Shown: piece by piece, positions 31,143-62,248 of the stretch | How the letters are laid out: each line of letters starts with the position of its first letter | Numbering within the stretch: position 1 is the stretch's first letter | From: an uncultured Agathobacter sp. | GTDB taxonomy: Bacteria > Bacillota > Clostridia > Lachnospirales > Lachnospiraceae | Direction: 5' to 3' | Length of the DNA stretch: 64,000 nucleotides | Assembly: GCA_945910395.1 (NCBI GenBank) | Contig: CAMDYX010000001.1 | Coordinates: 62,001-126,000 of the forward strand | The notes under the pieces: generated by a model | The model's input: the letters and a program-made list of their open reading frames with translations, nothing else | What the model was told of the DNA's origin: nothing | Databases searched by the model: none | Program-made: the position numbers and the translations under genes

Positions 31143-32216
31143 CTATTCAAGGCCTTCAACAAATTCTTTAATCTGCCTTTCCATGCATTCTGCAACATCC
31201 CTCTGCTGCAAATATACGATGGACCACTCCACAATCCTTTGCATGGTCATTTCCACATTCCATACCGGTTTCCAGCCAAATGCTTTCCTAATTTTTGAAC
31301 AATCCAATTTTAAGAAATTAGCTTCATGGGGACCCCCATCATACTTGTTGACCCATTGGACCTCATGACCTGTCTGTTCCTTCCATTCCTTACAGAATAG
31401 ATTCACAAGATCACCCGTTGTCCAACAATCCGTGTCATCCGGCCCCACATTATAATTACCTGCAAGGCTTTTGTCCTCGTATTGGACCTGTGCCAACATC
31501 AGATATACCATAACCGGCTCTAGCACATGCTGATAAGGTCTCGTGGAAAAAGGATTTCGAACAATGATATCCTCCCCCTTTTCTACTGCCCGAATACAGT
31601 CCGGAATAATTCGGTCCGCGGCGAAATCACCGCCTCCGATTACATTTCCCGCCCGGCAGGTGGAAATTGCAGTATTCCTATCTTCGAAAAAAGAATTCTT
31701 ATAGCTGCTTGTCACAAGTTCAGAACAGGACTTTGAATTTGAATAGGGATCATATCCATTTAGTTCCTCATTCTCGCGATATCCCCACTCCCATTCTTTG
31801 TTCAAATATACCTTGTCCGTTGTCACATTTACAAAGGACTTTACGCAGGAATTCAGCCGAACACACTCTAGGATATTCACAGTTCCCATCACATTCGTTT
31901 CATAGGTGTAAACCGGATTTCGGTAAGATTCACGCACAATTGGCTGTGCAGCCATATGAATCACAATTTCAGGCTGCACTTCTTCGAATACCTTTTTCAG
32001 GTGCTCCAAATCCCTCACATCACCGATAATGGAATTCATCTGAGACTCTAAATTGCACATGTCAAAAAGATTTGGGATTGATGGTGCCTCAAGGGCATAG
32101 CCCGTCACATCTGCCCCAGCCATGCAAAGTACCTTACACATCCAGGAGCCTTTGAATCCCGTATGCCCGGTAATCAGCACCTTTCTATTTTTGTAAAAAG
32201 CAGGATCAAATTTCAT
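31143..32216 (-). CDS. rfbG: CDP-glucose 4,6-dehydratase
   Basis: KVLITGHTGFKGSWMCKVLCMAGADVTGYALEAPSIPNLFDMC, HMAAQPIVRESYRNPVYTYETNVMGTVNILE, NVIGGGDFAADRIIPDCIRA. Confidence 0.93.
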   Translation of the reverse strand: MKFDPAFYKNRKVLITGHTGFKGSWMCKVLCMAGADVTGYALEAPSIPNLFDMCNLESQMNSIIGDVRDLEHLKKVFEEVQPEIVIHMAAQPIVRESYRNPVYTYETNVMGTVNILECVRLNSCVKSFVNVTTDKVYLNKEWEWGYRENEELNGYDPYSNSKSCSELVTSSYKNSFFEDRNTAISTCRAGNVIGGGDFAADRIIPDCIRAVEKGEDIIVRNPFSTRPYQHVLEPVMVYLMLAQVQYEDKSLAGNYNVGPDDTDCWTTGDLVNLFCKEWKEQTGHEVQWVNKYDGGPHEANFLKLDCSKIRKAFGWKPVWNVEMTMQRIVEWSIVYLQQRDVAECMERQIKEFVEGLE

Positions 32217-32256
32217 TTTACAAGCCCTTTCGCATTTCTTTCTCAGAATCAAACGA

Positions 32257-35200
32257 TTACACATTTATCGACCAGGCAACTCGATGCTTCTTTGCTTTTC
32301 CTCCATACTTTGGAGAAGAAATCAAACTCACATAATAAGTTCCCGAATTTAAAATTTTTCTCTTAATTCTACAGAAAAAACCAATATAATCCAAATCATA
32401 TCTGTTTGGATATCCATCTGCTACATCTGGACGATATACAGTAAATGTATCAAAGCAACGTGACTCTACGATCTGATTGCCTTCTACGCGTTCCAAAAGG
32501 ACATAGCGCGTCACCTCATTATTATTTGTAAAGGTCTCATCCCAGGACCACCCCGCAAAAACAAATTCATCCTCAACACTCAACTGATCTACATTAAGAT
32601 GACTATCAAAATCAACTTTTGCTTTCGGAATCGGTATTTCACTGTTACATATATCCGCTGAATTGTAAGAAAAATCCACATTATTTTGAACTAAATATGG
32701 ATGATAGAACGGATCTTTTTCTGCTAACTTTGGATGGCGTTCATAGAGTTTAGTGCGTTCTCTTTCCAAACGTTCCATCTTTTGCTTATCCAGATAATCA
32801 TATCCACGGCTAACAGACTCATGATGGTACAAAACCGCATCTGTTCGCATCACATTATAATATCCGGCTTCATATAGTTTAAAACACAAGTCTACATCAT
32901 TGTATGCAACTGGAAGATTCTCTTCAAAACCACCCACTTCACGGAATTTATCTGCTGACACCGCAAGACAAGCCCCCGTAACCGCACAATAATTAAAATT
33001 CAAGCAGTTGCGCCCAAAATAGAATAGTTCTTTATCTTCAAATCCGCAAAATGCATGGGATGGTCCGTTTTTGATTTGAATGATTCCAGCATGCTGTATT
33101 TTCTTTGAATCTGGATAATAAAGCTTCGCTCCAACTGCTCCAGAATGTGGAACCTGTGCCTGTCCAGCCATAACGCTCAGCCAATTTGGATGTAGCACCT
33201 CAATGTCATCATTCAAGAACAGATAAATATCTCCAGAAGCTAAGGAAACTCCCAGATTACACATATGTGAAAAATTAAACTGCATCTTCTCATAGTGATA
33301 AATGAATTTCATCTGGGGATTTGCAGTCTGATACTCTTGCATTAGTGCATTATACTTTTTACGGCACTCGTCAGCACTTCCGTTATCCACCAAAATCACT
33401 TCATAGTTTTCGTATGCCGTTATCGACAACAAAGAGTCAATCGCTCGCTTTAATATCTCATAGTTATCCTTGGAAGGAATAATAATACTGACCTTAGGAT
33501 TTCCCTGCGGCACATAAGTCACATGAATCTGGTTCATCTCCTGTGTCAAAACCCCCTGCAATCCACGTCGATTCAGCGCATCCTGTTTTGCACGTTTCTG
33601 TGCTTCAATAACATATGGTTTTGCCTCTATTGATCCGGATGTAGATCCATCAATCTCACGCCAGTGATATAGTACTTTGGGAATATGAAATATATGCTTT
33701 GCCGGAATCTGTTCTGTAAATCGAAGCGTAAAGTCATAATCCTGTGCGCCATCACATTCAGAGCGCAGCCCACCAATTTTCTTTGTAATACTTGTCCGAT
33801 ATACACTAAAATGACTGGTATACATAAATGACATTAGTGTGTCCGGCGACCAATCCGGTTTAAAATGCGGATTATGACGGCCTTTTCCATCCGCAAAAAT
33901 CTTATCCTCGTCACTATAGATAAAATCAAATTGATTATTTTCGTTTAATACTTTTACAACTTCATATAGCGCACTCTTGCTTAACGTATCATCACAATCT
34001 AAAAATCCAACAAACTCACCGCTCGCCATCTCAAGAGCAGAATTTGTACACTTTGAAATATGTCCATTCTCAGTTCGATAGCAGATTTTTATTCGTTTAT
34101 CATTTTCATACCGTTTTAGAATTGTACGAACTTCCCCCTGCGTGGAACAATCATCCGCCAAACATAGTTCCCAATTTGGATATATCTGATTGCGTACAGA
34201 TTCAATACATGCAACCAGATATTCATCAGCCACATTATATACCGGTACCAGAACTGAAATCAGCGGGCAATAAGAAAATTTCTGGTCGTAATCCTCCTTC
34301 TGCTCAAAGGAACGCATCATATTTTCATATACTAAATCTCTGCGTTCCATTTGCTTTTGATACTGTTTCCGCCTTTCTTTGGCAATACTCTCTGAGCCGA
34401 TATGTTTTTGTACTTGTCTTTTCTCAAGCCTATTTTTTACCTTATCTGCCAATGCACGGATCGGCTTTCTTTTTAGATACGCGACACAATCTATATAATC
34501 CTTTTGTGCCTGCATCTGTGCCTGCGCACTTTGCAAATGTTCTGATGCACATTTCAATTCAACATCCCGATGTGCAATCATTGCATTTCGTTCCTCAATA
34601 AGTAAGTCCTTTGCCTTGCCTGCATATTCCAGATTTTGGATATGCTGTTCTTTGTCTTGAAGTTGTCTTGTAAACTTTTCTATTCGTTCTGTTGCGCCAC
34701 CTGCAATCAAATCTTTCCAACTAATACTCGGTTTTTCATAGCGTTGCAAATAATTACATTTTAATCCCTTGCCATGAACATGCTGCTGGAACTGACTTTC
34801 CATTTTATTATATAGCTCAATTTCATCATCTGAAAAATTAAATATCCTTAATAATTCATTCCTACTTATCAGTGCAGAAACAATCTTCTGATTCTCATTA
34901 AAAATATATAATAAACTACGATATTTTACATAATTAACCGGAATTGGAAAATTTGACACCCACTCATAATCTAGGCAATAAACATCCCCGGATTCCATCT
35001 TTACAAAATTGCTTACAATCGAATCCAAATTTGATATCGCATATGCCGGAATGCCATTAGCCGGAGTACATTCCGGAAACATTTTCTGAAATTCATCCGT
35101 CATTGCAAATGGTACGCATATTTCCTGCTTTACATCAAACATTACGGAAAAAGCCTCTTGAATCTTGTTAACAAGAGCCCCCAATGATATTTTTTTCTCA

Positions 35201-46089: not shown

Positions 46090-46506
46090 TTACTCCTCAT
46101 GTTCTTCCAGATATCTGATATATCCGTCATAATCCCTCAAATATTCCAGTTCATCATAATGCTCACTGGCAAGACATAAAAGTACGGAATCCGGACTAAA
46201 CTCATACATTTCTTTCCATACCAGCTTTGGCAGATATAAACCGATTCTCGGCTTATCCAAAGAAAACACCTCAATATTTCCCCTGCCATCATCTACCTTG
46301 ACCTTGCAGGAACCTGCCACATTTACCAGCACAAATTCGCTGTTAATATTGGCATGCTTGCCTCGCACAATCTCACCGTCTGAGCCATAGATATAGAAAA
46401 TTCGCTCGATGGAAAAAGGAATGTCCTGCATTCCTTCCACAACCACAAGATTTCCTCTCTCATCACCGCGCTCATCGAATTCTAAAATTCTAGCTTTCTC
46501 TGCCAT
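46090..46506 (-). CDS. FdtA/QdtA-like cupin 3,4-ketoisomerase
   Basis: DERGNLVVVEGMQDIPFSIERIFYIYGSDGEIVRGKHANINSEFVLVNVAGSCKVKVDDGRG; adjacent to the FdtB-like aminotransferase. Confidence 0.88.
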   Translation of the reverse strand: MAEKARILEFDERGDERGNLVVVEGMQDIPFSIERIFYIYGSDGEIVRGKHANINSEFVLVNVAGSCKVKVDDGRGNIEVFSLDKPRIGLYLPKLVWKEMYEFSPDSVLLCLASEHYDELEYLRDYDGYIRYLEEHEE

Positions 46507-48289
46507 TTTTTAACACATCCTCCAGATTTTCTCTCGGAAATGCTTCCAGCATTCCACCCCTTGTCACATTACAAATCTTGACATGATTTCTTTTTGCCCA
46601 CTCGGCTGCAACCTCAAAGGCCTGAATCATCTTCTCTCCCTGACCGCTGCCCTTTGCAATCTCCTTCTCGCTTCGGTAATCCGTCAGCGACTTTACTCCC
46701 TTTGCATAATTGCAGTCCGACCCAATCAGGTAGATTTCTTTAAATCCCATATATACCGCTAATTGCAATACCGAATATGTGATTGTAAAGCCATCATAGA
46801 CTCTCTTATACGCATTATTCGAAAACTTTTTACACCGATAATTGCATTCCGGATAATGAAAAAAATAATTAAGCACATATAAAGGAAACCGTATCCAGTG
46901 TTTATCCTCATAGAATTCCTTCTTCATCTTCCAATTTCCGATAAACGCATATTCAAAAGTAGCATTCCTAATTTTGTCCCTTATTCGTTCATACACTAAC
47001 CCATCATCAATTGCATAGAAATTCGGCACATAGGACATCTGATCCAAAAGATTCACCACTCCATTCACACCAAAGGTATACTCATTCTTAAGTGCCTCTA
47101 CATCCGAAAGTGTAAGACTCGGACCTGTGGATATTACAAAGCATCGCTCCCCTTCGAATTTGTTCTTTAATGCCTTTAATTCCTTATATCGGGAAGAACA
47201 GCCTAAGCATCTTGGAAGATATCCAAACACATCATCGCAGATTGCCGGCTTCATCTTCTTCCACATCTTCGCATGCCAGCTCAGACGATTTCTTACATAG
47301 ATGATAGCCTGCTTTATTTTTTTCTTCTTGTGAAATACCATATCCAAATGCTTGGTGTACTGCTTCTCATTCATTGCCAGAAAACGTTCTGGTGTCGTCT
47401 GAATATAGCCTTTTGCACTCTGAACATCGTGTTCCCAATCAATCAAAGACACAATAACCTTTAAATCTTCAAACAACTGCTTACGCTCTTCTTCTGAGAA
47501 TAAAAACCATTTCTCGTCGATTCCCATGCAGAACTCTGCCATATGACCCTTTGCCATCGCAAGAAGCTTGTCTTTTCCCTGCATATACTCAAGCACAAAT
47601 CTTCTCCAACGCAAATCATCCCGATAATGCACAAAATCCACGATTTGCATCTCTGAGGCATTCTTCGCATTGGAAGGTCGCATCATATACTCATAGACCA
47701 CATCTGGAATGTATTCTACTTTTTTTGCATGATAAAACACCTGTACACGAAAGCTATTGTCATCACCCATGCGAAATGGCATATATTTAATATCGTTTTC
47801 GCGCAGCATACTTGTCCGGTAAATTGCCCCCAGAGCCCCAATCAGCTGAGTCTTCAGATGATCCTTCGGAGTCCTTTCCCAAAGGCGCACATCGTTATCA
47901 TCCACAATCGTACGCCTTATTGTTCCCTGTACAACATCCGCATCCGTCTCAAGCGCCTTTGCCATAAGCTTGCTGTACCCGTCCGAAGGAACATAATCAT
48001 CATTATCACAGAAAGCAATATACTTTCCTCTCGCAAGTGCAATACCGGTGTTCGGTCCGCTGTGGCAGCCCTCGTTTTTCTTATGTATAACTCGAACTCT
48101 ATTGTCTCTTCTTGCAGCCTCATCACACATTGCCGGGCAGTTATCCGGGGATTCATCATCAACCAAAATCAGTTCCAAATCCTTAAAATCACAATTCAGG
48201 ATACTGTCTACACAACGCCAGAAAAATTCTTCTGTACCATACACTCCCGACACGACGGTAAGAAGTGGTGTATGTTTCATCTCTGCCAT
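46490..48289 (-). CDS. GT2 glycosyltransferase fused to DUF115/MptE-like domain
   Basis: LLTVVSGVYGTEEFFWRCVDSILNCDFKDLELILVDDESPD; C-terminal half GERCFVISTGPSLTLSDVEALKNEYTFGVNGVV...IYLIGSDCNYAKG. Confidence 0.85.
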   Translation of the reverse strand: MAEMKHTPLLTVVSGVYGTEEFFWRCVDSILNCDFKDLELILVDDESPDNCPAMCDEAARRDNRVRVIHKKNEGCHSGPNTGIALARGKYIAFCDNDDYVPSDGYSKLMAKALETDADVVQGTIRRTIVDDNDVRLWERTPKDHLKTQLIGALGAIYRTSMLRENDIKYMPFRMGDDNSFRVQVFYHAKKVEYIPDVVYEYMMRPSNAKNASEMQIVDFVHYRDDLRWRRFVLEYMQGKDKLLAMAKGHMAEFCMGIDEKWFLFSEEERKQLFEDLKVIVSLIDWEHDVQSAKGYIQTTPERFLAMNEKQYTKHLDMVFHKKKKIKQAIIYVRNRLSWHAKMWKKMKPAICDDVFGYLPRCLGCSSRYKELKALKNKFEGERCFVISTGPSLTLSDVEALKNEYTFGVNGVVNLLDQMSYVPNFYAIDDGLVYERIRDKIRNATFEYAFIGNWKMKKEFYEDKHWIRFPLYVLNYFFHYPECNYRCKKFSNNAYKRVYDGFTITYSVLQLAVYMGFKEIYLIGSDCNYAKGVKSLTDYRSEKEIAKGSGQGEKMIQAFEVAAEWAKRNHVKICNVTRGGMLEAFPRENLEDVLKNGRES

Positions 48290-48293
48290 CTAA

Positions 48294-50045
48294 TTAACCC
48301 TTTTCCTTTTGGATTTTTCCATTCTCGACACGATATACCATATCGCATCCTTCAATCGTAGTCAGACGATGTGCGATAATGATCATCGTCTTCTTACCAT
48401 GCAGGCTGTTAATGGATTCCATAATTGCAGCCTCTGTCTCATTATCCAAGGCAGATGTTGCCTCATCAAAAATCAAAAGCTCCGGATCGGTATATAAAGC
48501 TCTCGCAATACCGATACGCTGCCTCTGCCCACCGGAAAGACGAACGCCTCTTTCTCCAATGGAAGTATCAATCCCCTCCGGAAGCGAACGTACAAAGTCT
48601 CCCATCTGCGCCTCTTCCAAAGCTCTCCATACCTGGTCATCCTGAATCTGATCTTCATGGAAACCAAAAGCAACATTTTCACGAATGGTTCCGTCTAACA
48701 TGTATATCATCTGCGGGATATATGCCAGATGCTTAAGCCACGCATCATAATTACAGCGAATGTCTGTATTATCCGAGCAAACCGTTCCGCCCTTTACCTC
48801 AAGTAATCCAAGAAGAATATCCACAGCAGTCGTCTTTCCGGCTCCGGAGGCACCTACAATTCCAACAGATTTTCCGACCGGAATTACCATATCTGCGCCC
48901 TCTAAGACATTTGTCTCTACATTTGGATACGCAAATGTAATCTGGTACAGACCACATTCCTTTCCCAAAGTAATGTTCTCTGTGGCAACAGGCCTATTCG
49001 CCTTACGAGTCTGATCCTCTTTCTCGTATTCCTTTGCGACCCGAAGATTTTCTATGGTCTTATCCAGCTGTGGCTCCAGGAAGGTGATGGAATTCAGGGA
49101 TGTACTCATTCGGTTTGCACTTGGAAGCAGACGAACCGCAGCAACTGCAAAGGCAGAAATCTGTGGTAATAACATACTGATACTGTTCCCCTGATAAACC
49201 ATAATTCCGATGTACCCAAGCATTCCGCTTACTACCACTGCCTCAATAATCAAACGAGGGGCTGAAAGCAGTACATTTTGAATCTTCTCCGAATTTACTG
49301 CCTTACTTGCATAACCGGAATACTCCTCCACAAAAAAGCGTTCCTTGTTCGCCACCTTCATTTCTTTTACACCTTCAATGGATTGCAGAATCCACTGATT
49401 TGCTACTGCATTGTTATACTGATAGTTCTGTCCCTCTCTTTTCAATACCGGTTTGACACCCTTGTATACAATAATCATGACCACAAGTAATAGCGCAGCA
49501 ATCATAAGAGCCATAACCGGATCAACGATAATAATTGCGATAATAAGCGCAAATGCCACAATTCCTTCTGTGAAGAAACTCATGGTGGTATTGAGCAGGT
49601 TAAAGGTTCCTGCGGTATCTGCCTTAATTACCCGCATAATCTCCCCCGAGCTGGCATTTAAGAAAAACTCATACGGGCGGTTTAAATACACTTCCATCAG
49701 ACGTCTTTGTGTTGCCACACGATTGTTACAGGTAAATCTTGTTTGAATGTAATATTCAAAAAACAGGAACACATCTTTCACAATGAACACGGCGATCATT
49801 GCTCCGATAGCAAGAAGGACGAATCCTTTTATTGTCTCAATTCCCAAAATATCGCATATTCCTGCAACGATCTCATTCGTTTCCATAAAGTTTTCCTGCA
49901 TCAGCGCAGTCATGAGCGGAACCACCAAAGATACACTTAAGGTCTCAAGTACTGCACCAATCAGCATCAATACAACTATTACAATAATTCTTTTCTTTTG
50001 CTGCTTTGACAACAGCAGGCTCAGTTTTTTTAATATTCTAATCAT
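48294..50045 (-). CDS. ABC transporter, fused permease/ATPase (PglK-like glycan flippase)
   Basis: Six TM helices; GIVGASGAGKTTAVDILLGLLEV, LSGGQRQRIGIARALYTDPELLIFDEATSALD. Confidence 0.93.
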   Translation of the reverse strand: MIRILKKLSLLLSKQQKKRIIVIVVLMLIGAVLETLSVSLVVPLMTALMQENFMETNEIVAGICDILGIETIKGFVLLAIGAMIAVFIVKDVFLFFEYYIQTRFTCNNRVATQRRLMEVYLNRPYEFFLNASSGEIMRVIKADTAGTFNLLNTTMSFFTEGIVAFALIIAIIIVDPVMALMIAALLLVVMIIVYKGVKPVLKREGQNYQYNNAVANQWILQSIEGVKEMKVANKERFFVEEYSGYASKAVNSEKIQNVLLSAPRLIIEAVVVSGMLGYIGIMVYQGNSISMLLPQISAFAVAAVRLLPSANRMSTSLNSITFLEPQLDKTIENLRVAKEYEKEDQTRKANRPVATENITLGKECGLYQITFAYPNVETNVLEGADMVIPVGKSVGIVGASGAGKTTAVDILLGLLEVKGGTVCSDNTDIRCNYDAWLKHLAYIPQMIYMLDGTIRENVAFGFHEDQIQDDQVWRALEEAQMGDFVRSLPEGIDTSIGERGVRLSGGQRQRIGIARALYTDPELLIFDEATSALDNETEAAIMESINSLHGKKTMIIIAHRLTTIEGCDMVYRVENGKIQKEKG

Positions 50046-50782
50046 TTCTGCTTTTCTTCCATTATCTTTCTTACTTTTTCAAGGTCTCTTGGCGTATCCA
50101 CGGAAAGTGACACGGAATCCACCAAACGATATTTAATATGAATCAAGTTTTCCAAAAATCTCTGAAGTGTTACATCTTCAATCTGCTCCAATGGTCCTTT
50201 TTCTGTGGACACAAAAAAATCCAATGCTCTCTTATCATAACATTCCACACCCACGACCTTCTTATACTTGAACAGAACCGTCTTATATGGGAATGGCACC
50301 GGTGATCTGGAAAGTAAGATGCACTCATCCTTATCATTGGTCACAATCTTGATATTGGCCGGATCCATTACTTCAGACGGTTCCGTAAAATACCGGCACA
50401 GGCCTCCCACATACATCTTATCGGAAGCAGAAATGTCCGCTTCATCCGGTAATGCTCGGCGAATGGTATCCGGCTCGATTAAAGGCTCATCCCCACATAC
50501 CACAAGGTAGTAATCTGCTTCTATTTTCTGGCTTACTTCATGAATTCTGTGCACGTGAGTCGGGTGCCTGTCCGAAGTCATCACAACCGGAATATCGTAC
50601 TCTGCACAAACAGCTTCAATCCGGTCACTATCCGTAGCCACATATATTTCATCAATTTCCGGTATCTTCTTCACTTGTTGATATACCCACCATACCATGG
50701 GTTTCCCACAGATTTCGGCAAGTGGCTTTCCCGGAAATCGTGAGGATTCATATCTGGAAGGAATTACTGCTACAATCTTCAT
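50042..50782 (-). CDS. KdsB-like CMP-sugar synthetase (3-deoxy-manno-octulosonate cytidylyltransferase family, divergent)
   Basis: MKIVAVIPSRYESSRFPGKPLAEICGKPMVWWVYQQ, VCGDEPLIEPDTI; start at M9 of ORF 50042..50806. Confidence 0.85.
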   Translation of the reverse strand: MKIVAVIPSRYESSRFPGKPLAEICGKPMVWWVYQQVKKIPEIDEIYVATDSDRIEAVCAEYDIPVVMTSDRHPTHVHRIHEVSQKIEADYYLVVCGDEPLIEPDTIRRALPDEADISASDKMYVGGLCRYFTEPSEVMDPANIKIVTNDKDECILLSRSPVPFPYKTVLFKYKKVVGVECYDKRALDFFVSTEKGPLEQIEDVTLQRFLENLIHIKYRLVDSVSLSVDTPRDLEKVRKIMEEKQK

Positions 50783-50865
50783 ACTGTTTGCCCTCCGTAT
50801 TGGCATAAAAAATCATGATAAGTATACCATAAGCATGTGCAAAAATCTACCCAGGGACGCAAAAG

Positions 50866-50894: not shown

Positions 50895-51956
50895 TTACCT
50901 CGTAAAAATATGATTCAATGTATTGGAAATTCGTTCCATCTGTGTATCGAGATTTTTCTTATGTGTGCAGGAAAGACACCATGTGCTGATCCGCCGTTCC
51001 ACAAGATAAAACACGCTTCCGACAGCGATTGTGATAACGAGATTTGCAATATTACACAGCAGGACGGACTTGCAGTAAGGATAGAGTCTCGCTGCTGCAT
51101 AGTTAAAGTATACCATTTGAACAAGAAAGATGTTATAGGATGCCTTTCCGACAAATTCCAAAGGCGGGCAGGAAAGCTTCATCAGTTTTTGAGATCGTAA
51201 TATAAAGCCGATAATCGGGATAATAAAAAGTACCGCTATAAAGGAGGTCTGGGTCCAATGTGTGATTACCTTTGGCGTGTAGCCCCGGTAATTGTATAGC
51301 CAGATAAAAGCGGCCCCAACGATCATGGAAACAAGAGACAGCCATTTTTTTGCTTTACTCTTATTCAAGTATACATAACAGCCGAATGCTATCAGAAGGA
51401 TATAGCGGAAAAGAAGCAATCGATAGCACTTATAATCCATTTCAAAAACATACTGAATCCATTCATAGAAGGCATTTAGCAGTCCGCAGAAAATCACCCC
51501 GACAAAATCGTACTTTTTTACAATAAAATACAGAATCGGAAATACGAAAATAAATTGCACGAGAATCGGATAGTAATAAGAGCCTGCGCCCCATCCTCCT
51601 GTGAAAAGTCCTCGTATCCACGCGCCAATGATAGCCCGGGGTCCCATGGAAATGGAGCTGATTACAAATTCCACAAGGAATGCCATCCAAAACGGAATGC
51701 TGTAGCGAAGAAACTTATCCAGTACAAACCGAAGGGAATACGCCTGTGACATCCGGGTAATCGCGTGCCTGTCATAGGATAAGGCATATTGATAACCCAA
51801 CACAATCATAAGCACCGGAACCGCCATCGTAATCCAATATGGAAAAAGCAGCTGTAAGCGTAAGTCTTCCCAGCCGGTATAATGATCCAGAATAATCAGT
51901 ATGATGCATAGTCCTTTTAAAATATCTAACATATGGTTTCGTTTCATAATTATCAC
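50895..51956 (-). CDS. Acyltransferase family 3 membrane protein
   Basis: MKRNHMLDILKGLCIILIILDHYTGW, FVLDKFLRYSIPFWMAF, ~10 TM helices. Confidence 0.88.
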   Translation of the reverse strand: MIIMKRNHMLDILKGLCIILIILDHYTGWEDLRLQLLFPYWITMAVPVLMIVLGYQYALSYDRHAITRMSQAYSLRFVLDKFLRYSIPFWMAFLVEFVISSISMGPRAIIGAWIRGLFTGGWGAGSYYYPILVQFIFVFPILYFIVKKYDFVGVIFCGLLNAFYEWIQYVFEMDYKCYRLLLFRYILLIAFGCYVYLNKSKAKKWLSLVSMIVGAAFIWLYNYRGYTPKVITHWTQTSFIAVLFIIPIIGFILRSQKLMKLSCPPLEFVGKASYNIFLVQMVYFNYAAARLYPYCKSVLLCNIANLVITIAVGSVFYLVERRISTWCLSCTHKKNLDTQMERISNTLNHIFTR

Positions 51957-52073: not shown

Positions 52074-53126
52074 ATGACAAAGCTTATGCAAAATAAAGAA
52101 AAGAGTTCTTATTTAAGTGCCTTTATGGTTGGATTAAGTATCATGGTGATCATGATACACAATCAGACTTTAGCTCTTCTAAGCTCAAAAATTGATTATA
52201 CGGAAATGAATGATCTATTCATTAGGATTCTAAATGATGGGATTTTAGACATTGCCGTACCCGGCTTTTTCTTTATATCCGGATACTTATATTTTAGAAA
52301 TTTTTCTATAAAATCCTACGGCTCAGTATTAAAGAAGAAAGTACATACACTACTGATTCCATATATTTTGTGGAATCTGATTGGCTTCCTGTATGCTTAC
52401 TGTGTTTCTAATGTTCCATTTTTAAAACAGTTTTCCAGTATGGATACCGTTGAGCTTACACTGCAAACGGTTTTTGAAGCAATATTTCTGCACAGATATA
52501 ACACCATATGCTGGTACATATTAAGCCTGATGGGGCTGATTGTTATTTCCCCTTTAATTGAAGTGTGTATTAACAAAAAGCATAGAGCAATCCTTTTTTT
52601 GCTTTTCTTATTCGCTTATTATTTTTTCTTTCACGAACATATGCTAATCCGTGATTTTGGTACTTTGTCCTTTGTTCTTGGTGGAATAATGGGGAAATGT
52701 AAACCAACTCTTGTTGATAACGAACGGATGATTGATATCAATACCATCACATCCTTCGTACTATTTGCGGGAATAGCTCTTTTTCGCACATGGATTACCG
52801 GTATTGCAGGCAATATACTGCTTCTGCTTGCAAACCACCTTCTCCGGCTTGTCCAGCTTTCTTTGTTGTGGAACTTCATCGGAAGTCTGGTAAAAAATTC
52901 AAATAGAAAGGTAAATAATTATTCATTTCCAATCTATGTCATGCATTGGTATGTTTTATCCATTGTGCAAAAACTATTCATGAAACTGATTCCCGCGAAT
53001 AACATTACTGTTTGGCTTATGTTTATAGGAAGCACATTAACAACGACATTGCTCATCATTCTAATTGTAGACGTATGGGAAAGATTATTTCCACGAATAT
53101 ACAAATGTTTTATGGGAGGACGATAA
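52074..53126 (+). CDS. Acyltransferase family 3 membrane protein
   Basis: YLSAFMVGLSIMVIMIHNQ, DIAVPGFFFISGYLYFRNFSIKSYGSVLKKKVHTLLIPYILWNLIGF. Confidence 0.88.
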   Translation: MTKLMQNKEKSSYLSAFMVGLSIMVIMIHNQTLALLSSKIDYTEMNDLFIRILNDGILDIAVPGFFFISGYLYFRNFSIKSYGSVLKKKVHTLLIPYILWNLIGFLYAYCVSNVPFLKQFSSMDTVELTLQTVFEAIFLHRYNTICWYILSLMGLIVISPLIEVCINKKHRAILFLLFLFAYYFFFHEHMLIRDFGTLSFVLGGIMGKCKPTLVDNERMIDINTITSFVLFAGIALFRTWITGIAGNILLLLANHLLRLVQLSLLWNFIGSLVKNSNRKVNNYSFPIYVMHWYVLSIVQKLFMKLIPANNITVWLMFIGSTLTTTLLIILIVDVWERLFPRIYKCFMGGR

Positions 53127-53160
53127 AAAGGTAAGCGCCTATTAGGCGCTTACCTTTTAG
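53126..53160. terminator. Bidirectional terminator between convergent genes
   Basis: Perfect palindrome AAGGTAAGCGCCTATTAGGCGCTTACCTT with flanking A/T tracts. Confidence 0.85.
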
Positions 53161-55031
53161 TTTTCTTCCACCGGTGCAATATACATATTTTTCATCAGCT
53201 CCTCTTTTGGCAAAAACGGTGCCAGATCTTCAAGTGGAGGGCTGACCAAAGTACCATCTGCAAGACTTTTTGTTGCACTCTTCGGTTCAAATACCTGATC
53301 CGTAGAGACAAAGATTTCACACAGCACCGGTTCATCCAATAAAATCGCCTCATCTACTACCTCCATCATCTCTTTGTTTGAGGAGGCAGATAAATATTTC
53401 CACCCAAAAGCATCTGCGATCTTTCCAAAGTCAGGGAAAGACAAATCCCCGCTTTCCGGACCGATTCCGACTTTCGTATGTTCTTTGAACAGATTGTTCT
53501 GTGTTTGACGGATGGAATGATATCCCTCATTATTAATCAAAAACAACAGAATAGGAAGCCTGTTGGTACTTACCGTCTGAAGCTCCTGCAGGTTCATCAT
53601 AATGCTTCCATCGCCTTCGAGACAAATCGTCCTTCGTTTTCCGGTGGCAATACATGCTCCAATAGCAGCAGGGAGTCCATATCCCATACTGGCAATCGCA
53701 TTATTAATCAAAAACCTTGCATTCTTTTGAATCACATAATTTTGATGTCCCACCACGCACGCACTTCCGTTGGAAACAACCGTCATATTTCCTTCCGGGA
53801 GCCTGCTGCTTAAATACTTAATCAATGCATATACGTTTGCGGTCTGCCCATTTTCTTCCCAATGCTTCGGAAGGGTAACCGGATACTCCTTTTTCCAGCG
53901 TAAGCACTGGTCTCTCCATTCGGCAGCATCCGATAGAGGACTTTGCGGAGTTACCTTCGCCTCCTTAAGTTTTTCTAGCACACCTTCCAAAAAGGCTTTT
54001 GCATCTGCACAGATGGGAAGCTCTACATGTATGGTTGTCTTTTGCAGTTCCGCAGGATCGATATCCACCATGATCACATAGGCCTCCCTGGCCCAAGTCT
54101 TCCAGTTATATCCCACATTTCTTATGGACAGCCGGTTGCCGATTGCGAGTACTACATCTGCATTCTGCACCGCGAAATTACCTGCCCGGTCTCCCATGAT
54201 TCCACCACGGCCAACATATAGCTCATAAGAATCCTCAACTGCATCAATGGAATCCCAATAAGTCACAATAGGAACGCCAAGCAACTCGGCCACCTGGCGA
54301 AACACCTGATATCCACCGGAAAGGCGTACACCGTTTCCCACATACAGCACCGGCCGCTTTGCATTTCTAATCCTTTCAATGACCTCACAAACAGCCTCCT
54401 CCGAAGGTGCCGGATTTTCATCCACATAGCCCTCTGCTTTTGGATCGAACCCTGCCAGATCCTCGGTCTTAATATACATGCCCTGGAAATTTACAGGAAT
54501 GTCAATCCAGGATGGTCCCATTCGTCCTGTTGTAGCAAGGTAAAAGGCCTTTTCCAATTCATACCGTATCTTTTTGGGATCTTCCAGCATTACGGCGTAC
54601 TTGCACATAGAGGATACCGCCGTAGTAATATCAAACTCCTGATCTCCAACAGATCGAAGGGAAGCGCCCTCCACAAACTGATTCATATATCTTGCCGTGG
54701 TATCGTATCTCACCTGTCCGGAAATAATAAGCATCGGAATAGAATCCAGCCAGCCCCCTACTACACCGGTAATGGCATTTGTTCCCCCCGGTCCGGTTGT
54801 CACACATACTGCTGCAATTTTATTATTTACTCTGGCATATGCCTCAGCGGCAATGGCACAAGCCTGCTCATGGTGATTATAGACACAGGTTATCCCCGGG
54901 TGATGCCCCAATGCATCATTCAAATGCATGGCTCCGCCCCCGGTAACCATAAAACAATCTACGATATCATGCTCAACCAGAAAATTTGCTACATAATCCG
55001 CCAATCGGATGTTCATCTTATACTCCTTCAC
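53157..55031 (-). CDS. Thiamine pyrophosphate-dependent, acetolactate synthase-like enzyme
   Basis: YNHHEQACAIAAEAYARVNNKIAAVCVTTGPGGTNAITGV, GDGSIMMNLQELQTV...NNEGYHSIRQTQ. Confidence 0.93.
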   Translation of the reverse strand: MKEYKMNIRLADYVANFLVEHDIVDCFMVTGGGAMHLNDALGHHPGITCVYNHHEQACAIAAEAYARVNNKIAAVCVTTGPGGTNAITGVVGGWLDSIPMLIISGQVRYDTTARYMNQFVEGASLRSVGDQEFDITTAVSSMCKYAVMLEDPKKIRYELEKAFYLATTGRMGPSWIDIPVNFQGMYIKTEDLAGFDPKAEGYVDENPAPSEEAVCEVIERIRNAKRPVLYVGNGVRLSGGYQVFRQVAELLGVPIVTYWDSIDAVEDSYELYVGRGGIMGDRAGNFAVQNADVVLAIGNRLSIRNVGYNWKTWAREAYVIMVDIDPAELQKTTIHVELPICADAKAFLEGVLEKLKEAKVTPQSPLSDAAEWRDQCLRWKKEYPVTLPKHWEENGQTANVYALIKYLSSRLPEGNMTVVSNGSACVVGHQNYVIQKNARFLINNAIASMGYGLPAAIGACIATGKRRTICLEGDGSIMMNLQELQTVSTNRLPILLFLINNEGYHSIRQTQNNLFKEHTKVGIGPESGDLSFPDFGKIADAFGWKYLSASSNKEMMEVVDEAILLDEPVLCEIFVSTDQVFEPKSATKSLADGTLVSPPLEDLAPFLPKEELMKNMYIAPVEEN

Positions 55032-56619
55032 CTTGATATAAGGATTTTGTAAGGAAATTGATTTCCATATCTTCTTTCAGCTTTAATAAACCACTTCTGA
55101 TTTTCTCATTGTTTGCCAGCTTGTACGCTTCATTTCCTGCAAAGGAATAGCTTACGTCATAATAATCCGCTTCTTTCGAAAATCCATCAAAGCCCGCAAG
55201 GGTAGCCTTTTTCATTCCAAGCTTGTGAAGCGCACTTAAGCACAGCAGCAAGGCATTATCATTGTTCTGATGGCTCTCTTCAATAAGTGCAGGATAGTTT
55301 AATACGTAATCCACCACCCCATCCAAAGGTGTGATATTGGATGTCAGAATCAGCTTAAAGGTCCGGGTCTTTATTCTTCTGGAATCCACCAATCTGCTGT
55401 ATCTTTTTGAATTACTTACAAAAACATAATCACACTCATATTCCTTTGGTGCAAAATTAACTGCAACTACAATCGGTTTTTCCGTTGCAATATAATCTTT
55501 AATCTTAACCTGCTCGACGCCTATGCTCTTACCCGGTCCAAGAAGCAGAATATTGCGGTTTGCGCTGGCTTTCTTTAGTTCCTCCAGAGCATTGGTGTCA
55601 TCGATTACTTTTGACTGATGTTCAGAATATGCCTTTTCAATATAGTTTTTATCATAAAGGAGCTTTATTTCTTCCGGAATCTGCGACAATATTTCATTTA
55701 CCGCACTAACGGATAACGTCTTCTTATCCAGGAGAAACTGCACATAACTCGGATGGCAGTTCTGCATTGCGGAAATATAGAAATTGTATTTATAGCCCCA
55801 GTAGAATTTCTGATAAATCGACATCAGATCTGTGTCCAAAATTTCCATGAACTGATTGATATCATAGGATTTCTGATATCTCTCATTCATATGAAGCGAG
55901 ATCAGCTCAATGGGACAGTTCCCGGCACTCTTTCCCATTCCATACACCGTCGCATCTACAACCAGATTGTGGGTTGTCTTCTGGGATATAAATCTGATGG
56001 AATTGCTAAATGCCAGCTGGAAATTATTGTGCGCGTGATATCCAATCGCAATGTCCTTATCCAGATGGTTCTCTAAGAGGCTAAAGTAGTTCGCCAATTT
56101 TTCCTCATCCAGAAGACCATAGGTATCTACAATAGAAAATGCATATGGCTTTATTTCATTGATCTTCTGAATGTAATCCACCATGTCCTGATCGGAATAT
56201 GCAGTGATGGAAATCGCCTGAATAAACAGCTTATAGCCTTTTTCTTTAATTGCCTTGCAAAACGGCAATGCCTGTTCTATTTTTTCCTTTTTGAAAATGA
56301 CACGGATTCCGTCAATAAAAGTCGTGGAAGCATCTTTTATATGCTCTAAGGAACATGTCCCATAATCAATCATTGCTACCGGTATGGCATGCTTCTTTTC
56401 TACATTTTCAAAAATTACGTTCCAGCAATCGGTATCCGGAACAATGGTACGGTTAATGTCAAACTGCCTTCGGTCATCCAAAAAACCGACTTCAATATAA
56501 TCAACTCCGGCCTCGTCCAATCTCTTATAGGTTCCCGTTATCACATTGTGCCCAAACTCCCAATCGTTTATATAGCCACCATCTCTTAAGGTGCAATCCA
56601 ATAAGCTTAATGAATGCAT
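55018..56619 (-). CDS. DRE-TIM/HMG-lyase-like aldolase domain fused to C-terminal DUF115/MptE-like Rossmannoid domain
   Basis: MHSLSLLDCTLRDGGYINDWEFG, GYHAHNNFQLAFSNSI, VDATVYGMGKSAGNCPIELI; C-terminus RNILLLGPGKSIGVEQ...IVVAVNFAPKEYECDYVFVSNSKRY...ATLAGFDGF. Confidence 0.87.
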   Translation of the reverse strand: MHSLSLLDCTLRDGGYINDWEFGHNVITGTYKRLDEAGVDYIEVGFLDDRRQFDINRTIVPDTDCWNVIFENVEKKHAIPVAMIDYGTCSLEHIKDASTTFIDGIRVIFKKEKIEQALPFCKAIKEKGYKLFIQAISITAYSDQDMVDYIQKINEIKPYAFSIVDTYGLLDEEKLANYFSLLENHLDKDIAIGYHAHNNFQLAFSNSIRFISQKTTHNLVVDATVYGMGKSAGNCPIELISLHMNERYQKSYDINQFMEILDTDLMSIYQKFYWGYKYNFYISAMQNCHPSYVQFLLDKKTLSVSAVNEILSQIPEEIKLLYDKNYIEKAYSEHQSKVIDDTNALEELKKASANRNILLLGPGKSIGVEQVKIKDYIATEKPIVVAVNFAPKEYECDYVFVSNSKRYSRLVDSRRIKTRTFKLILTSNITPLDGVVDYVLNYPALIEESHQNNDNALLLCLSALHKLGMKKATLAGFDGFSKEADYYDVSYSFAGNEAYKLANNEKIRSGLLKLKEDMEINFLTKSLYQGEGV

Positions 56620-56722: not shown

Positions 56723-58969
56723 TTACTCAAATGTAATCTCTTCCTCTGCCTTGGCATAAACATCAACCTGAGTATGTACATCAAGTCTGTTAACAATCCA
56801 CCCTCTCATCATGCACATTTTTATAAAGTCATCAATTCTGTTTTCGCCATTCATCTCTTTCAAGGTAACAACAACACCAAATCGCAATCCTCTTCCGGCT
56901 TTTGGATCAAGGCGTTCTTTTGTCTTTATACTCAGTCCCCACATACCGGACTGGTAAGCCTTGCGTGGACGGGCATTTTCTTTCAATGCTTCGCTAATAT
57001 GTTTGACATTGTCCCACTTACGGTACAATTTACGTGCATCCTCCTCATAAATTGTATTGAGCCCTTCTTCAGCCTGTTTGTTGTAATCTATGGCCTTAAT
57101 TACTGCCTTGCCCTTTTGCTCTGCAATTCGCCCAAAGTGTATGTCCATCTCTGTTGATGTATAGTCAACTCCCTGATTTCTATCACTTTTCGGAAAATAA
57201 GCAAGCGTTGCTTTTGCAAAGAAAGGATGTGCATTCATATCCTGCGGTACCGGAATATTGTAAGTGTATACTTCATACTCATCAATGCTTCCTGACATAA
57301 CAAACCTTATTTCATCCTCCTGCGAGTATAAAATATCCTCAATTCTCTTCGGTACAATCCCATACCCTTTTTCATACTTAATGGTATCTTGTCTGTCCCA
57401 CCCTGCAGCAGAATCTATGATTAAAGCCTTTGCCACTTCACGGCTTAACCCCATAACATGTATGAGATATGCCATTTTACGTGTTATCCAGGGAGCCGCA
57501 AAAGATGTGCCTGTCACAGTTGCTTTTCCCAAAGGTTCACAAACCACAATTTTATCCGGACCATCTCCGCCATAGTAGCAAACATCCGGTTTATAAAAGA
57601 AAGATAACACAGGTCCTCTTCGTGTATAAGATGCAGACTGACCATTAAAATCCACAGCATTCACAACCAATGAATTCAAGGAATCTGCCGGAGCGCCTAT
57701 CTTAATAACATCTGAATTTTTCTTCCTATTTGTACCCGCCACCACAAAAATAACATCATATTCATACTGAATTTTATCCAGTTCAGCCGCCTCCGGAGAT
57801 ATAAAATTTGCGTCAATTTCCATTGCGGACCCCAATGATAGATTCCATACTTTTATATCTCGATTTTTCCGAACAATATCACGAATCTGCTTCAATATAG
57901 CGAATGAACTAAATCTCCCAGCCGTGGCAACTCCAAAATGCCGAACCCGAAAATTACCACAATTGTCCTGCAATCTTGGATTAAATGACGGACCATCAAC
58001 AATAATAGATGTTACGGCAGTACCATGAAAATAATCTTCCGGACGCAATTCAATATCATCACTTATACACCTCTGATACTCTACCCAATCGCCAAAATAT
58101 ACTCTTTTATCAAATTGGGTGTCAATAACCCCTACAATCGGTTCGTTTCCGGGCTTTGCAATAGATAATTGTTCTTCATAATCCTTACTATCTGTAATAT
58201 CATAGTCAATTTCCGTAAAGTCCTTAACACTCATTGCAATCAAATAGGGGGCTTTATCCCATAAAATATCTATCTCCTCTTTTTCCATCCGCAAAGTTGT
58301 TTCATCGATCATCTTTGCGTTAATCATATTTATGCCCAAGCCACTTAACAGCTCCGTTGTATCAACGCCCGTTTTATATATCGTTACAATAGACTGTTCG
58401 CTTGCAGTCTTTGGAGCACGGTCTATATGAAAGTTTTCAACATAAAAGCAATCTACCAGTATTTTCAAAAACGGATTTTTTTTCATGATACTATCATTAT
58501 ATTTCCCCGAATTGATAAGCTCTGTATCTTCACTCGAAATATTTCCGTTGTAAAAATTTTGAATAGTGGCCGCACATTTGTCCAAAAGCATTACTGATTT
58601 CTGCAAAGACTCAACAGAAAGGAAGTAAGTAAATACATGTTTTTGTACCCATTCATTCTTTTCATTATAGCCCTCCGAAAATTTAGACCCTCTTACAGAT
58701 AGGTTTGGATGTTTTCCGCCATCAGACAATAGAATTTGAATTCTATTACTCTTTGCTACAACTTTTCTGTAATGTACGCTAACCAAAGCTCCATGAATTG
58801 TCTTCTCTTGATTCCAAAACAAAATAATATCTTGTAACTGTTTTTTCAGTTTCAGAACATGATCTGCACGAACAGATGTCCCTTTCGGTAAATTCGTCGG
58901 TCCAAACCCATCGGGGGCTTTTCGTTTCTGAAATTGACCTTTCAATTGCAAAATATTATTCATCTTCAA
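56723..58969 (-). CDS. ietS: S8 subtilisin-like serine protease, IetS-like
   Basis: Complete triad motifs: PIVGVIDTQF (Asp), YFHGTAVTSIIV (His), VTGTSFAAPWITRKMAYLI (Ser); paired with an AAA+ ATPase. Confidence 0.85.
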   Translation of the reverse strand: MKMNNILQLKGQFQKRKAPDGFGPTNLPKGTSVRADHVLKLKKQLQDIILFWNQEKTIHGALVSVHYRKVVAKSNRIQILLSDGGKHPNLSVRGSKFSEGYNEKNEWVQKHVFTYFLSVESLQKSVMLLDKCAATIQNFYNGNISSEDTELINSGKYNDSIMKKNPFLKILVDCFYVENFHIDRAPKTASEQSIVTIYKTGVDTTELLSGLGINMINAKMIDETTLRMEKEEIDILWDKAPYLIAMSVKDFTEIDYDITDSKDYEEQLSIAKPGNEPIVGVIDTQFDKRVYFGDWVEYQRCISDDIELRPEDYFHGTAVTSIIVDGPSFNPRLQDNCGNFRVRHFGVATAGRFSSFAILKQIRDIVRKNRDIKVWNLSLGSAMEIDANFISPEAAELDKIQYEYDVIFVVAGTNRKKNSDVIKIGAPADSLNSLVVNAVDFNGQSASYTRRGPVLSFFYKPDVCYYGGDGPDKIVVCEPLGKATVTGTSFAAPWITRKMAYLIHVMGLSREVAKALIIDSAAGWDRQDTIKYEKGYGIVPKRIEDILYSQEDEIRFVMSGSIDEYEVYTYNIPVPQDMNAHPFFAKATLAYFPKSDRNQGVDYTSTEMDIHFGRIAEQKGKAVIKAIDYNKQAEEGLNTIYEEDARKLYRKWDNVKHISEALKENARPRKAYQSGMWGLSIKTKERLDPKAGRGLRFGVVVTLKEMNGENRIDDFIKMCMMRGWIVNRLDVHTQVDVYAKAEEEITFE

Positions 58970-60005
58970 CCATCTCCTTTAATTCTCTGGCGACACTACT
59001 CCTTGATACTTTACTCAAAATTTCGATTTCTCTTATCGTAAATTTTTGTTCCTGCAGCTCCTTAATATTTTCCGGTTTTTTACCTGTAACCGTATAATAT
59101 AACCTCCTAAAATAATCCATTTCATCATCCGGATCACTAAATGCCACTGCTGTTTTAATCAAATTTTTCAATTCTCCCGGATATGGTAATGGAGAAAGCA
59201 GCATCATTATTTTTCTGAATAATCTAATATCTTTTTTTGCCAAATTAAATTTAGATAAAAACTTATTTAAATATTCTTCCGAAATATCCATCAAATCATC
59301 CTGTGAATATCTATTAAAATCTATAACAGAGTCAAATCGTCTTATCAGCGCTTTATCAAAATGTTCAAATAAATTCGTAGTAGCTACTAAGACTATTCTC
59401 TCGTCCATACGATCCATATTCTTAAGTAATGATGATGTCACTCTTCCCATTTCACGCAAATCATTCGCATTTGTTCTATCTAAAGCAACAGCATCTATTT
59501 CGTCGAATAAAATTATTACTTTTTCCGGATGAACAAAACTATTAATCTCTTTGAACAGCTCTGACATATTCTTCTGGGTCTGACCCATTTTACTATCAAT
59601 GATAGCCGAAAAATCCACCATATATATTTCTCTATCCAAAATACGTGCCAACTGCTTAACTGCCTCTGTCTTACCGGTGCCGGGCGCTCCTTGAAAAAGG
59701 AATTTATTGATTCCCGCATTATGGGCTACTGCATGTACAATACCCAATAAGTCTTGGGTAATATCCTCCGGCAACCATAAAGGATCACTTATCTTTTCTA
59801 CCTTTTCAAACATGGCAGTCTCATTCTCACTCATTTGTGGAATAAATGTATTGGCATTTGACATTAACGCCATAATATATTCTGCGAGCTGATAGTCTCC
59901 TGATTGATCAAAATCTCGCGCTATCTCATAAGCTTCACTTCGAAAACCAGCATCATTATTCTCTGCATGATATTTAATTAAATTAATAACGCTCTTCTTT
60001 TTCAT
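58956..60005 (-). CDS. ietA: AAA+ ATPase, IetA-like
   Basis: NKFLFQGAPGTGKTEAVKQLARIL (Walker A), KVIILFDEIDAVALDR (Walker B), RIVLVATTNLFEHFDKALIRRFDSVIDF. Likely ATG start is M4 of ORF 58956..60014, with AGGAG 8 nt upstream; 14-bp overlap with the protease start. Confidence 0.9.
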   Translation of the reverse strand: MKKKSVINLIKYHAENNDAGFRSEAYEIARDFDQSGDYQLAEYIMALMSNANTFIPQMSENETAMFEKVEKISDPLWLPEDITQDLLGIVHAVAHNAGINKFLFQGAPGTGKTEAVKQLARILDREIYMVDFSAIIDSKMGQTQKNMSELFKEINSFVHPEKVIILFDEIDAVALDRTNANDLREMGRVTSSLLKNMDRMDERIVLVATTNLFEHFDKALIRRFDSVIDFNRYSQDDLMDISEEYLNKFLSKFNLAKKDIRLFRKIMMLLSPLPYPGELKNLIKTAVAFSDPDDEMDYFRRLYYTVTGKKPENIKELQEQKFTIREIEILSKVSRSSVARELKEMVEDE

Positions 60006-60035
60006 ATGATCCACTCCTAGTTCTTTGATATATAC

Positions 60036-60368: not shown

Positions 60369-61481
60369 ATGTTTAGAGAGATAAGAATAAAAAGTTATAG
60401 AGGCTTGCGTGATATAAGTCTAACGGATCTGGAGCCGGTAAATGTTCTTGTAGGAGACAACAATTCTGGTAAGACTTCCGTGTTAGAAGCAATTCAATTA
60501 TTTGCAGATAAAAATGTATTAACGAATATGATTTCCATCGCTAGAAAAAGAGAAACACCCTTAAATCCTCTCGGAAGAAATAAATTACAACCATTTGATG
60601 CCCTTTTGTATTCATTTCCCATGAACCAAGAACAACTGAAAGAAGTTTACCTTGAGGCATACTCCGATATTTATGATTATTGTAGAGTAGGGGTACGTGG
60701 GGAAGTACATAGGGATGCTTTCTATAGGGCAGACTTGACACTAGCGGAAATGCGTCGATATGGTACCATCTGTGACGAAGATGGGATGGTTCGCGTAATG
60801 CAAGGCGAATATGTTTTTGAAAAGGATGAAAGAGAATCGGGCGAATATATTTTCCGAGAAACGCAAGTAAAACCCGAGAAGAGAGGGGACGATAGTGCAC
60901 AGTATTTGCCGGTGAAACGAAAAGGAAATATTATGTATATTTCCCCAATGGACATTTATACGGATAAGGTTCTAACTGCCAGTCTGTATAAGGGGATGTT
61001 GGTTGAAGAAAAAGATAGATTGCTCGATTTAATGCGTCTCTTTGATGATAGAATAGTTGGAATTGAAACAGCAGTACTATATGGCAGACCGACTACAATG
61101 ATCGAGATGGAAGGAATGGGATTGATGCCCATTTCTGTTTTTGGCGACGGAGTAAAAAAAGTATTAACATTAGCAAGTGCAGTAATCAAAATGCGCGGTG
61201 GCATAGTATTGATTGATGAGTTTGAAACCGGAATACATAAAAGAGCATTGAAATATGTAGCAGAATGGATGATCTCAATAGCAAATCGATATGAAGTACA
61301 GTTTTTTTTGACAACACATAGCAGTGATGCACTTGCAGCTTTGGTAGAGGCGCAGGGGCCGTATGACAATATGCTTAGTGCATATCGGTTGGAGCATTAT
61401 AAAGATGAATTTTATGTAAAAAGCTTTGCAGGAAATGATTTGCGTATACTAAAGAACAGCCAAGGATTGGATATTTTATGA
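60369..61481 (+). CDS. OLD-like AAA ATPase (AAA_15/AAA_21 type)
   Basis: MFREIRIKSYRGLRDISLTDLEPVNVLVGDNNSGKTSVLEAIQLFA, FGDGVKKVLTLASAVIKMRGGIVLIDEFETGIHKRAL, QFFLTTHSSDALAAL. Confidence 0.92.
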   Translation: MFREIRIKSYRGLRDISLTDLEPVNVLVGDNNSGKTSVLEAIQLFADKNVLTNMISIARKRETPLNPLGRNKLQPFDALLYSFPMNQEQLKEVYLEAYSDIYDYCRVGVRGEVHRDAFYRADLTLAEMRRYGTICDEDGMVRVMQGEYVFEKDERESGEYIFRETQVKPEKRGDDSAQYLPVKRKGNIMYISPMDIYTDKVLTASLYKGMLVEEKDRLLDLMRLFDDRIVGIETAVLYGRPTTMIEMEGMGLMPISVFGDGVKKVLTLASAVIKMRGGIVLIDEFETGIHKRALKYVAEWMISIANRYEVQFFLTTHSSDALAALVEAQGPYDNMLSAYRLEHYKDEFYVKSFAGNDLRILKNSQGLDIL

Positions 61482-62248
61482 GAAATTATTTGATTATTGT
61501 CGAGGGGGCACATGATATTGCTTTACTTGAGAAATTACTGCGATTAAATGGAGTTGATGAAAAAATCAGCAATGAAAATAGCCTTCCAGAAGTTTGGAAA
61601 CATACCATTCCGACAAGATACCCATTTCATGCCGACAGATTGGAGCGGATTACACCAATACCTAGTTTTGTAAAAAATTCTGAGGTTTCTGTTGCAATAA
61701 AAAATGCAAATAGCGATACGGAAATCATGAATGTACTTCAGCAAACATTGCATCTTATGGAAGTTAGAGAATTGGATCAGGTTAGCGGAATTATGTTAAT
61801 CTGCGATGCAGACAATTTAAAAGCGGATGAAAAAAGACACAGGTTGCTGGCTTCCAGAGAAGAGAAAGAAGATTTTATGCTGGATGAGAAGACAATGGAG
61901 CTAAACGTGAGTATAAAGAAAATTCCACTATATACATTTATTTTTCCTGATAATAGCGGTATTGGAAATCTGGAGAATCTGCTCTTGCAAACCGCAGAAG
62001 TAGAATATCCAGAATTGCTCAAATTGGCATCAGAGTACGTAGAGAAGGCTTCCGACATTTGCACCGATTTGAAAAAGGAGCAAAAAGCCAAAAAGGCAAA
62101 AGTAGGGTGTATTGCAAATGCGATGAAGCCGGGGAAAGCAAACCAGGTATCAATTGCGGATGACAATTGGGTATCTCGTAGAACTATGAGCGAATGCTCG
62201 ATGTTGAAAATGCTTGACAAGTCATTAAAGGAAATGATATGTAAATGA
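61478..62248 (+). CDS. TOPRIM-like (DUF3226-type) protein paired with an ATPase
   Basis: MRNYLIIVEGAHDIALLEKLLRLNG (VEGxxD), SGIMLICDADNLKADEKRHRLL, TFIFPDNSGIGNLENLLLQ; 4-bp overlap with the ATPase. Confidence 0.8.
   Translation: MRNYLIIVEGAHDIALLEKLLRLNGVDEKISNENSLPEVWKHTIPTRYPFHADRLERITPIPSFVKNSEVSVAIKNANSDTEIMNVLQQTLHLMEVRELDQVSGIMLICDADNLKADEKRHRLLASREEKEDFMLDEKTMELNVSIKKIPLYTFIFPDNSGIGNLENLLLQTAEVEYPELLKLASEYVEKASDICTDLKKEQKAKKAKVGCIANAMKPGKANQVSIADDNWVSRRTMSECSMLKMLDKSLKEMICK

Follow-up and report, generated by a model that had tools for sequence, protein, structure and literature searches.

A fused HMGL-type aldolase that may feed two kinds of unusual bacterial sugar in Lachnospiraceae

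We analyzed a stretch of 64,000 nucleotides from an uncultured Agathobacter sp. of the family Lachnospiraceae (assembly GCA_945910395.1), namely positions 62,001-126,000 of contig CAMDYX010000001.1 (C1 in the genome). This stretch is called the window below, and coordinates are those of the window unless marked otherwise. It encodes an HMG-lyase (HMGL)-type aldolase fused to a distinct C-terminal domain, followed directly by a thiamine diphosphate (ThDP; also thiamine pyrophosphate, TPP) enzyme similar to the lyases YerE and JanthE. Both open reading frames are real, and the neighborhoods of their relatives suggest that unusual bacterial sugars of two kinds draw on a single aldolase family. 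On balance, we consider it probable that the aldolase makes a 3-deoxy-2-oxo acid, which is then either activated with cytidine monophosphate (CMP) or decarboxylated as it is added as a branch to a sugar linked to cytidine diphosphate (CDP).

The aldolase and the ThDP enzyme

A first-pass annotation of the window had called the first protein an HMG-lyase-type aldolase, and its N-terminal part indeed matches PF00682 over the cut-off of that family (Table 1). The AlphaFold model of the entire fusion (predicted local distance difference test, pLDDT, 92) has as its nearest Foldseek match 3dxi (BVU_2661), followed by 4-hydroxy-2-oxovalerate aldolases. With 3dxi and the DmpG/BphI aldolases it shares a TIM-barrel HMGL fold and an aligned metal site, composed of an Arg-Asp pair that follows the first strand and a His-X-His motif on the barrel, as is typical of DRE-TIM/HMGL-like metallolyases. 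These residues, R12 and D13 (codons at 56586-56581) and H195 and H197 (56037-56029), are invariant in 66 aldolase relatives, as are E43 and others. The best reading of the fusion protein is that of a divalent-metal DRE-TIM-type aldolase predicted to act on pyruvate.

It differs from DmpG/BphI and 3dxi in its C-terminal domain. These ~190 residues form a separate unit, the own model of which likewise has a pLDDT of 92. The earlier proposal of a DUF115-like fusion stands to the extent that hhalign links this domain distantly to the Maf/MptE family (probability 90%, E 1.5e-6), but the C-terminal half of the aldolase has no Pfam match, and none to PF01973 even at E 10. A fold search with the domain model gave a weak match to SteA.

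The closest solved relatives of the ThDP enzyme are 8rph, 8rpi and 8rpj (E 7e-122, 411 bits), of which 8RPH and 8RPJ are cited for JanthE, a YerE-like enzyme joining 2-oxo acids to ketones (PMC12188165). The similarity to JanthE (8rph) extends over the whole length, and the best acetohydroxyacid synthase match is more distant (about 1e-65, 225 bits), which bears out the earlier assignment to the YerE class. The ThDP motif GDG-N is present, with GDG at residue 473 where JanthE has CDG, and a candidate catalytic Glu lies in an HHEQ motif at residue 55. The known YerE-like lyases use a ketone as acceptor for acyl anions, and hydroxylated 2-oxo acids are the preferred substrates of several of them, including ErwE and MMAR_2332 (PMC12247030). 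The window enzyme probably belongs to the same functional class and gives a surface sugar a carbon branch. It differs from these lyases in being coupled to an aldolase gene.

The first-pass annotation itself had raised the possibility that this enzyme is an acetolactate synthase (IlvB) serving branched-chain amino acids; we considered this together with a role of the aldolase as a catabolic lyase. TIGR00118 is in fact its best named NCBIfam match; nevertheless, the score of 333 bits lies below the cut-off of 538, and two other genes in the genome pass it with 718 and 742 bits, with an ilvN-like gene after one of them and an ilvD-like gene before the other. As the relatives of the TPP enzyme also lie in glycan loci, we rejected this identification; it is largely refuted and in our estimation extremely improbable. 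A search of plasmids with the TPP enzyme returned only matches of ~30% identity, labeled as acetolactate synthases where they have an annotation.

Partner genes of the aldolase across the family

The co-occurrence analysis proposed in the first-pass annotation was run on 250 genomes of the same family, which yielded 57 fusion-type aldolase matches. Neighborhoods of up to about 20 kb were fetched, and the count covered the 56 loci in which the fusion is 480 amino acids or longer, a partner being a gene within 10 kb or six genes of the aldolase; annotations of the relatives rest on profile and phmmer matches. All 56 fusion aldolases proved to have a JanthE-like TPP enzyme or a cytidylyltransferase, either KdsB-like or PseF/NeuA-like, as a partner. 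Within six genes, 29 loci have the cytidylyltransferase, 24 the TPP gene, two (the window and L105) both and one neither; this last locus, L101, does have a TPP gene about 0.7 kb away. In 24 of 31 loci, the gene directly upstream of the aldolase is the cytidylyltransferase. The two kinds of loci also differ in their remaining content, with rfbF or rfbG found in 13/24 TPP-type versus 0/29 KdsB-type loci. A KdsC-type phosphatase adjoins the aldolase in 11 KdsB-type loci (for example, TIGR01670 at 143 bits, cut-off 107) and 16/56 loci have a HAD_2 phosphatase, which together suggest a phosphorylated intermediate. HAD phosphatases are found with the TPP partner as well. By chance, a given gene would have a fusion aldolase within 10 kb with a probability of about 0.0017. 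We rejected a chance neighborhood in a gene-rich glycan region, because the partner sets segregate and the adjacency is tight.

When partner labels were mapped onto a tree of 76 aldolases, TPP required 5 changes, against a mean of 25 after shuffling, and KdsB required 7, against 23; hence, partners were exchanged on a few occasions. A clade that is mainly TPP-type has the window's aldolase as its first branch, with 100/100 support. The tree of the TPP enzymes is more mixed, aldolase-adjacent members being interleaved with others. A phylum-wide search of 399 genomes with the KdsB-type paralogue recovered two genomes besides the window's own, one of them with an adjacent KdsB gene, so that the fusion looks concentrated in the window's family.

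In the KdsB-type loci the aldolase occupies the place of KdsA in the KdsD-KdsA-KdsC-KdsB route to CMP-3-deoxy-D-manno-octulosonate (CMP-Kdo): KdsB- and KdsC-type genes flank it in many relatives, and a KdsD-type gene in one, but KdsA was not found in any aldolase locus. The 250 genomes contain 24 KdsB genes over the cut-off, and KdsA exceeds its cut-off in only five of the genomes. A fusion aldolase lies no more than 10 kb from 20 of the KdsB genes, and KdsA adjoins two others; the remaining two are one at about 16 kb from an aldolase and one close to a contig end. The KdsB-type gene of the window scores 213 bits with NF003952 (cut-off 193) and 120 bits with TIGR00466 (cut-off 155), and 31 bases separate the second KdsB of its genome from another aldolase, in a locus that lacks a TPP gene. 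Related arrangements are an aldolase-KdsB-HAD operon on Leisingera plasmids and a single-domain relative of the aldolase (L156) flanked by a cytidylyltransferase gene on one side and KpsF/KdsD on the other. The first-pass annotation had seen KdsB as a further step toward the same sugar; across genomes it appears instead to mark a second use of what the aldolase makes. In two genomes of the family (L171 and L172), canonical KdsD-KdsA-KdsB clusters are present and the aldolase is not.

The TPP-type loci are connected to CDP-sugar synthesis. In a first set of 83 TPP loci (80 related genomic loci and three matches in the window's genome), the flanks contain rfbG in 50 and a DegT/RfbH-type gene in 55, usually in the order rfbG-rfbH-TPP, and one such DegT/RfbH-type gene reaches 724 bits against the RfbH cut-off of 423. 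This is the setting expected of YerE-like lyases with a CDP-4-keto-3,6-dideoxyhexose acceptor. The window's genome has RfbF, RfbG and RfbH over the cut-off in one copy each, all on C1 and with the previously recognized rfbG inside the window; therefore, the CDP-3,6-dideoxy-4-ketohexose acceptor can be made, though the genes are scattered. Its RfbH adjoins a short-chain dehydrogenase of a kind present in 28/46 TPP-type versus 1/32 KdsB-type loci, and its RfbF adjoins a family 2 glycosyltransferase (GT2) of a kind present in 23/46 versus 0/32. Together with the JanthE-like TPP enzyme, these CDP-sugar genes support the branched sugar envisaged in the first-pass annotation, on grounds of sequence and gene content.

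Genome G104 has three JanthE-like TPP genes within 35 kb (L177; G104:C1:1327887-1362618), one of them close to RfbH and to a gene with a NeuB-like start. A plasmid of Desulfobaculum bizertense (L179, 2992-9014) has rfbF-rfbG-rfbH, two transketolase halves and then a single-domain aldolase, the transketolase halves being a different ThDP enzyme in the position of YerE.

Several observations weigh against a pyruvate aldolase with these two outlets. The window's aldolase falls below the TIGR03217 equivalog cut-off for 4-hydroxy-2-oxovalerate aldolase (82 versus 286 bits) and has Tyr16 at the aligned His of DmpG. No phosphatase gene adjoins it, and rfbF and rfbH are 74-86 kb beyond the window's end and not beside the TPP gene. 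The two KdsB genes of the window's genome, in which neither KdsA nor NeuB was matched, speak in favor of the aldolase as a replacement, but in a genome 89% complete this absence is provisional. Finally, whereas 25 of the 80 JanthE-like TPP genes in the 250 genomes are within 10 kb of a fusion aldolase, the other 55 are not, and many of these may therefore use pyruvate. This last point favors a rival explanation, in which the TPP enzyme is a plain YerE adding a yersiniose-type acetyl branch from pyruvate, the aldolase serves only the KdsB branch and their adjacency is incidental. The window's KdsB gene, 4.2 kb from the aldolase, and locus L105, where the aldolase shares an operon with KdsB and HAD genes and the TPP gene runs divergently, are also in its favor. 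However, 25 of the 57 fusion aldolases have such a TPP gene no more than 10 kb away, in many cases directly adjacent and mostly without KdsB, and the partner type follows aldolase subclades, with the window's aldolase at the base of a fully supported TPP-type clade; accordingly, we regard this explanation as unlikely, if deserving of some weight. That the window and L105 each have both partners close to the aldolase could alternatively mean that the aldolase and KdsB make a single CMP-ulosonic acid, with the TPP enzyme acting upstream to make or extend the aldehyde or keto acid of the aldolase and no CDP-sugar branch being formed. Such double partnership is seen in only 2/56 loci, the CDP-sugar genes are found in TPP-type and not in KdsB-type loci, and the TPP enzyme groups with the ketone-coupling JanthE, all of which make this quite improbable.

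The surrounding locus

The first-pass annotation described the aldolase and TPP genes as overlapping. With the GTG as TPP start codon they do, by 14 bases, but not with the ATG at 55016, six codons in and about one base past the aldolase stop; this ATG, at which the alignment of most homologues begins, is the likelier start. Under either start the two form an operon-type pair. The KdsB-like neighbor, placed earlier at 3 kb, is present but 2.4 kb from the TPP gene and, as given above, somewhat farther from the aldolase (Table 1). Genes related to the glycosyltransferase listed there recur across the aldolase/KdsB loci of relatives.

Table 1. Features of the window discussed in the text
Feature	Coordinates	Strand	Evidence
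HMGL-type aldolase fused to a C-terminal Rossmann-like (possibly MptE/DUF115-like) domain, 533 aa	56619..55018	-	PF00682 E 1e-24; AlphaFold/Foldseek
Aldolase catalytic domain, residues 5-261	55837..56607	-	PF00682; invariant metal-site residues in 66 relatives
Aldolase C-terminal domain, residues 342-533	55018..55596	-	hhalign to Maf/MptE; model pLDDT 92
JanthE/YerE-like ThDP (TPP) enzyme, 624 aa	55031..53157	-	Three TPP_enzyme domains, E 4e-32 to 2e-34; 8rph/8rpi/8rpj match
KdsB-type cytidylyltransferase	50806..50042	-	PF02348 E 4e-38
GT2 + MptE-like glycosyltransferase; candidate transferase for CMP-activated acid sugar	46490..48289	-	PF00535, PF01973
rfbG, CDP-glucose 4,6-dehydratase	31143..32264	-	TIGR02622 445 bits, cut-off 278
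Acyltransferase-3 family protein between TPP and KdsB genes	50895..51956	-	PF01757 E 6e-10
Acyltransferase-3 family protein, strand opposite to TPP/aldolase	52074..53126	+	PF01757 E 3e-25

The pair had also been placed at the start of a glycan locus, which holds locally, but glycan genes resume on C1 past the window to about C1:285,000. Most of the ~230 kb of C1 from about 55,000 to 285,000 consists of glycan-synthesis genes, nearly all on one strand and interrupted by defense genes. Just upstream of the aldolase, a subtilase and AAA ATPase pair (56723-60014) matches models of the IetS/IetA anti-phage system, and an AAA ATPase with its partner gene (60369-62248) matches the PDC-M38A/B candidate defense models; a defense island thus adjoins the glycan genes. 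Inside the glycan locus, a 666-aa protein (43020-45020) has a citrate lyase ligase as its C-terminal domain.

Proposed fates of the aldolase product and their significance

From the genes, domains, conserved metal-site residues, gene pairing and genome content described above, we infer every reaction, the aldehyde acceptor and the products of the following scheme. The aldolase would add the enolate of pyruvate to a probably phosphorylated aldehyde to give a 4-hydroxy-2-oxo (3-deoxy-2-ulosonic) acid; working without phosphoenolpyruvate, it would act in place of KdsA or NeuB. The aldol product would be dephosphorylated before either fate. In the first, the ThDP enzyme would decarboxylate the acid and add the acyl anion to C4 of the CDP-3,6-dideoxy-4-ketohexose made by RfbF/RfbG/RfbH, and a short-chain dehydrogenase would probably then reduce the new ketone, resulting in a long-branch sugar of the caryophyllose or erwiniose type. 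In the second, the KdsB-type enzyme would activate the acid as a CMP-ulosonate for transfer into the glycan. The first fate is favored for the window's aldolase because of its direct operon pairing with the TPP gene; the second may also operate in the window, given a KdsB gene 4 kb away. The first-pass annotation had named pyruvate or 2-ketobutyrate as the donor. We extend this, in that the aldolase probably makes the 2-oxo acid donor and the branch need not come from either.

The first fate is consistent with what is known of related lyases and sugars. JanthE, whose physiological substrates are unknown, accepts 4-hydroxy-2-oxovalerate (PMC12188165), and ErwE couples to CDP-4-keto-3,6-dideoxyglucose (PMC12247030). 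Erwiniose and caryophyllose are known long-branch sugars (PMC12247030, PMC5706390), the latter with a 1,3,4,5-tetrahydroxyhexyl branch at C4 of a 3,6-dideoxyhexose (PMC5706390). A long hydroxylated C4 branch of this kind would fit an aldol-derived 2-oxo acid; specifically, that of caryophyllose would be the skeleton left by a seven-carbon 3-deoxy-2-oxo acid that is decarboxylated, joined to the 4-ketone and reduced. The review text treats aldolases only as separate tertiary-alcohol enzymes and names no donor-supplying aldolase. In the open-licence literature, a scope that leaves outside most subscription journals, we found no description of an aldolase in erwiniose or caryophyllose pathways or in KdsA-less Kdo pathways.

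The scheme thus offers both a source of the hydroxylated 2-oxo acids needed by ErwE-type enzymes and an acid-sugar route for bacteria with KdsB but without KdsA or NeuB. More tentatively, and with the balance of our judgment slightly against the full extent of the claim, the aldolase family might replace KdsA/NeuB in gut anaerobes and some marine bacteria, its product being shared between CMP-ulosonate formation and CDP-sugar branching, and the one aldolase of the window may feed both. Were this last to hold, two sugars with a common carbon skeleton would occur in one glycan. If the scheme is true, it would provide a route in which two enzymes, an aldolase and a lyase, yield tertiary alcohols that are of interest for synthesis, and the type of sugar made would be predictable from gene content in many uncultured gut Lachnospiraceae.

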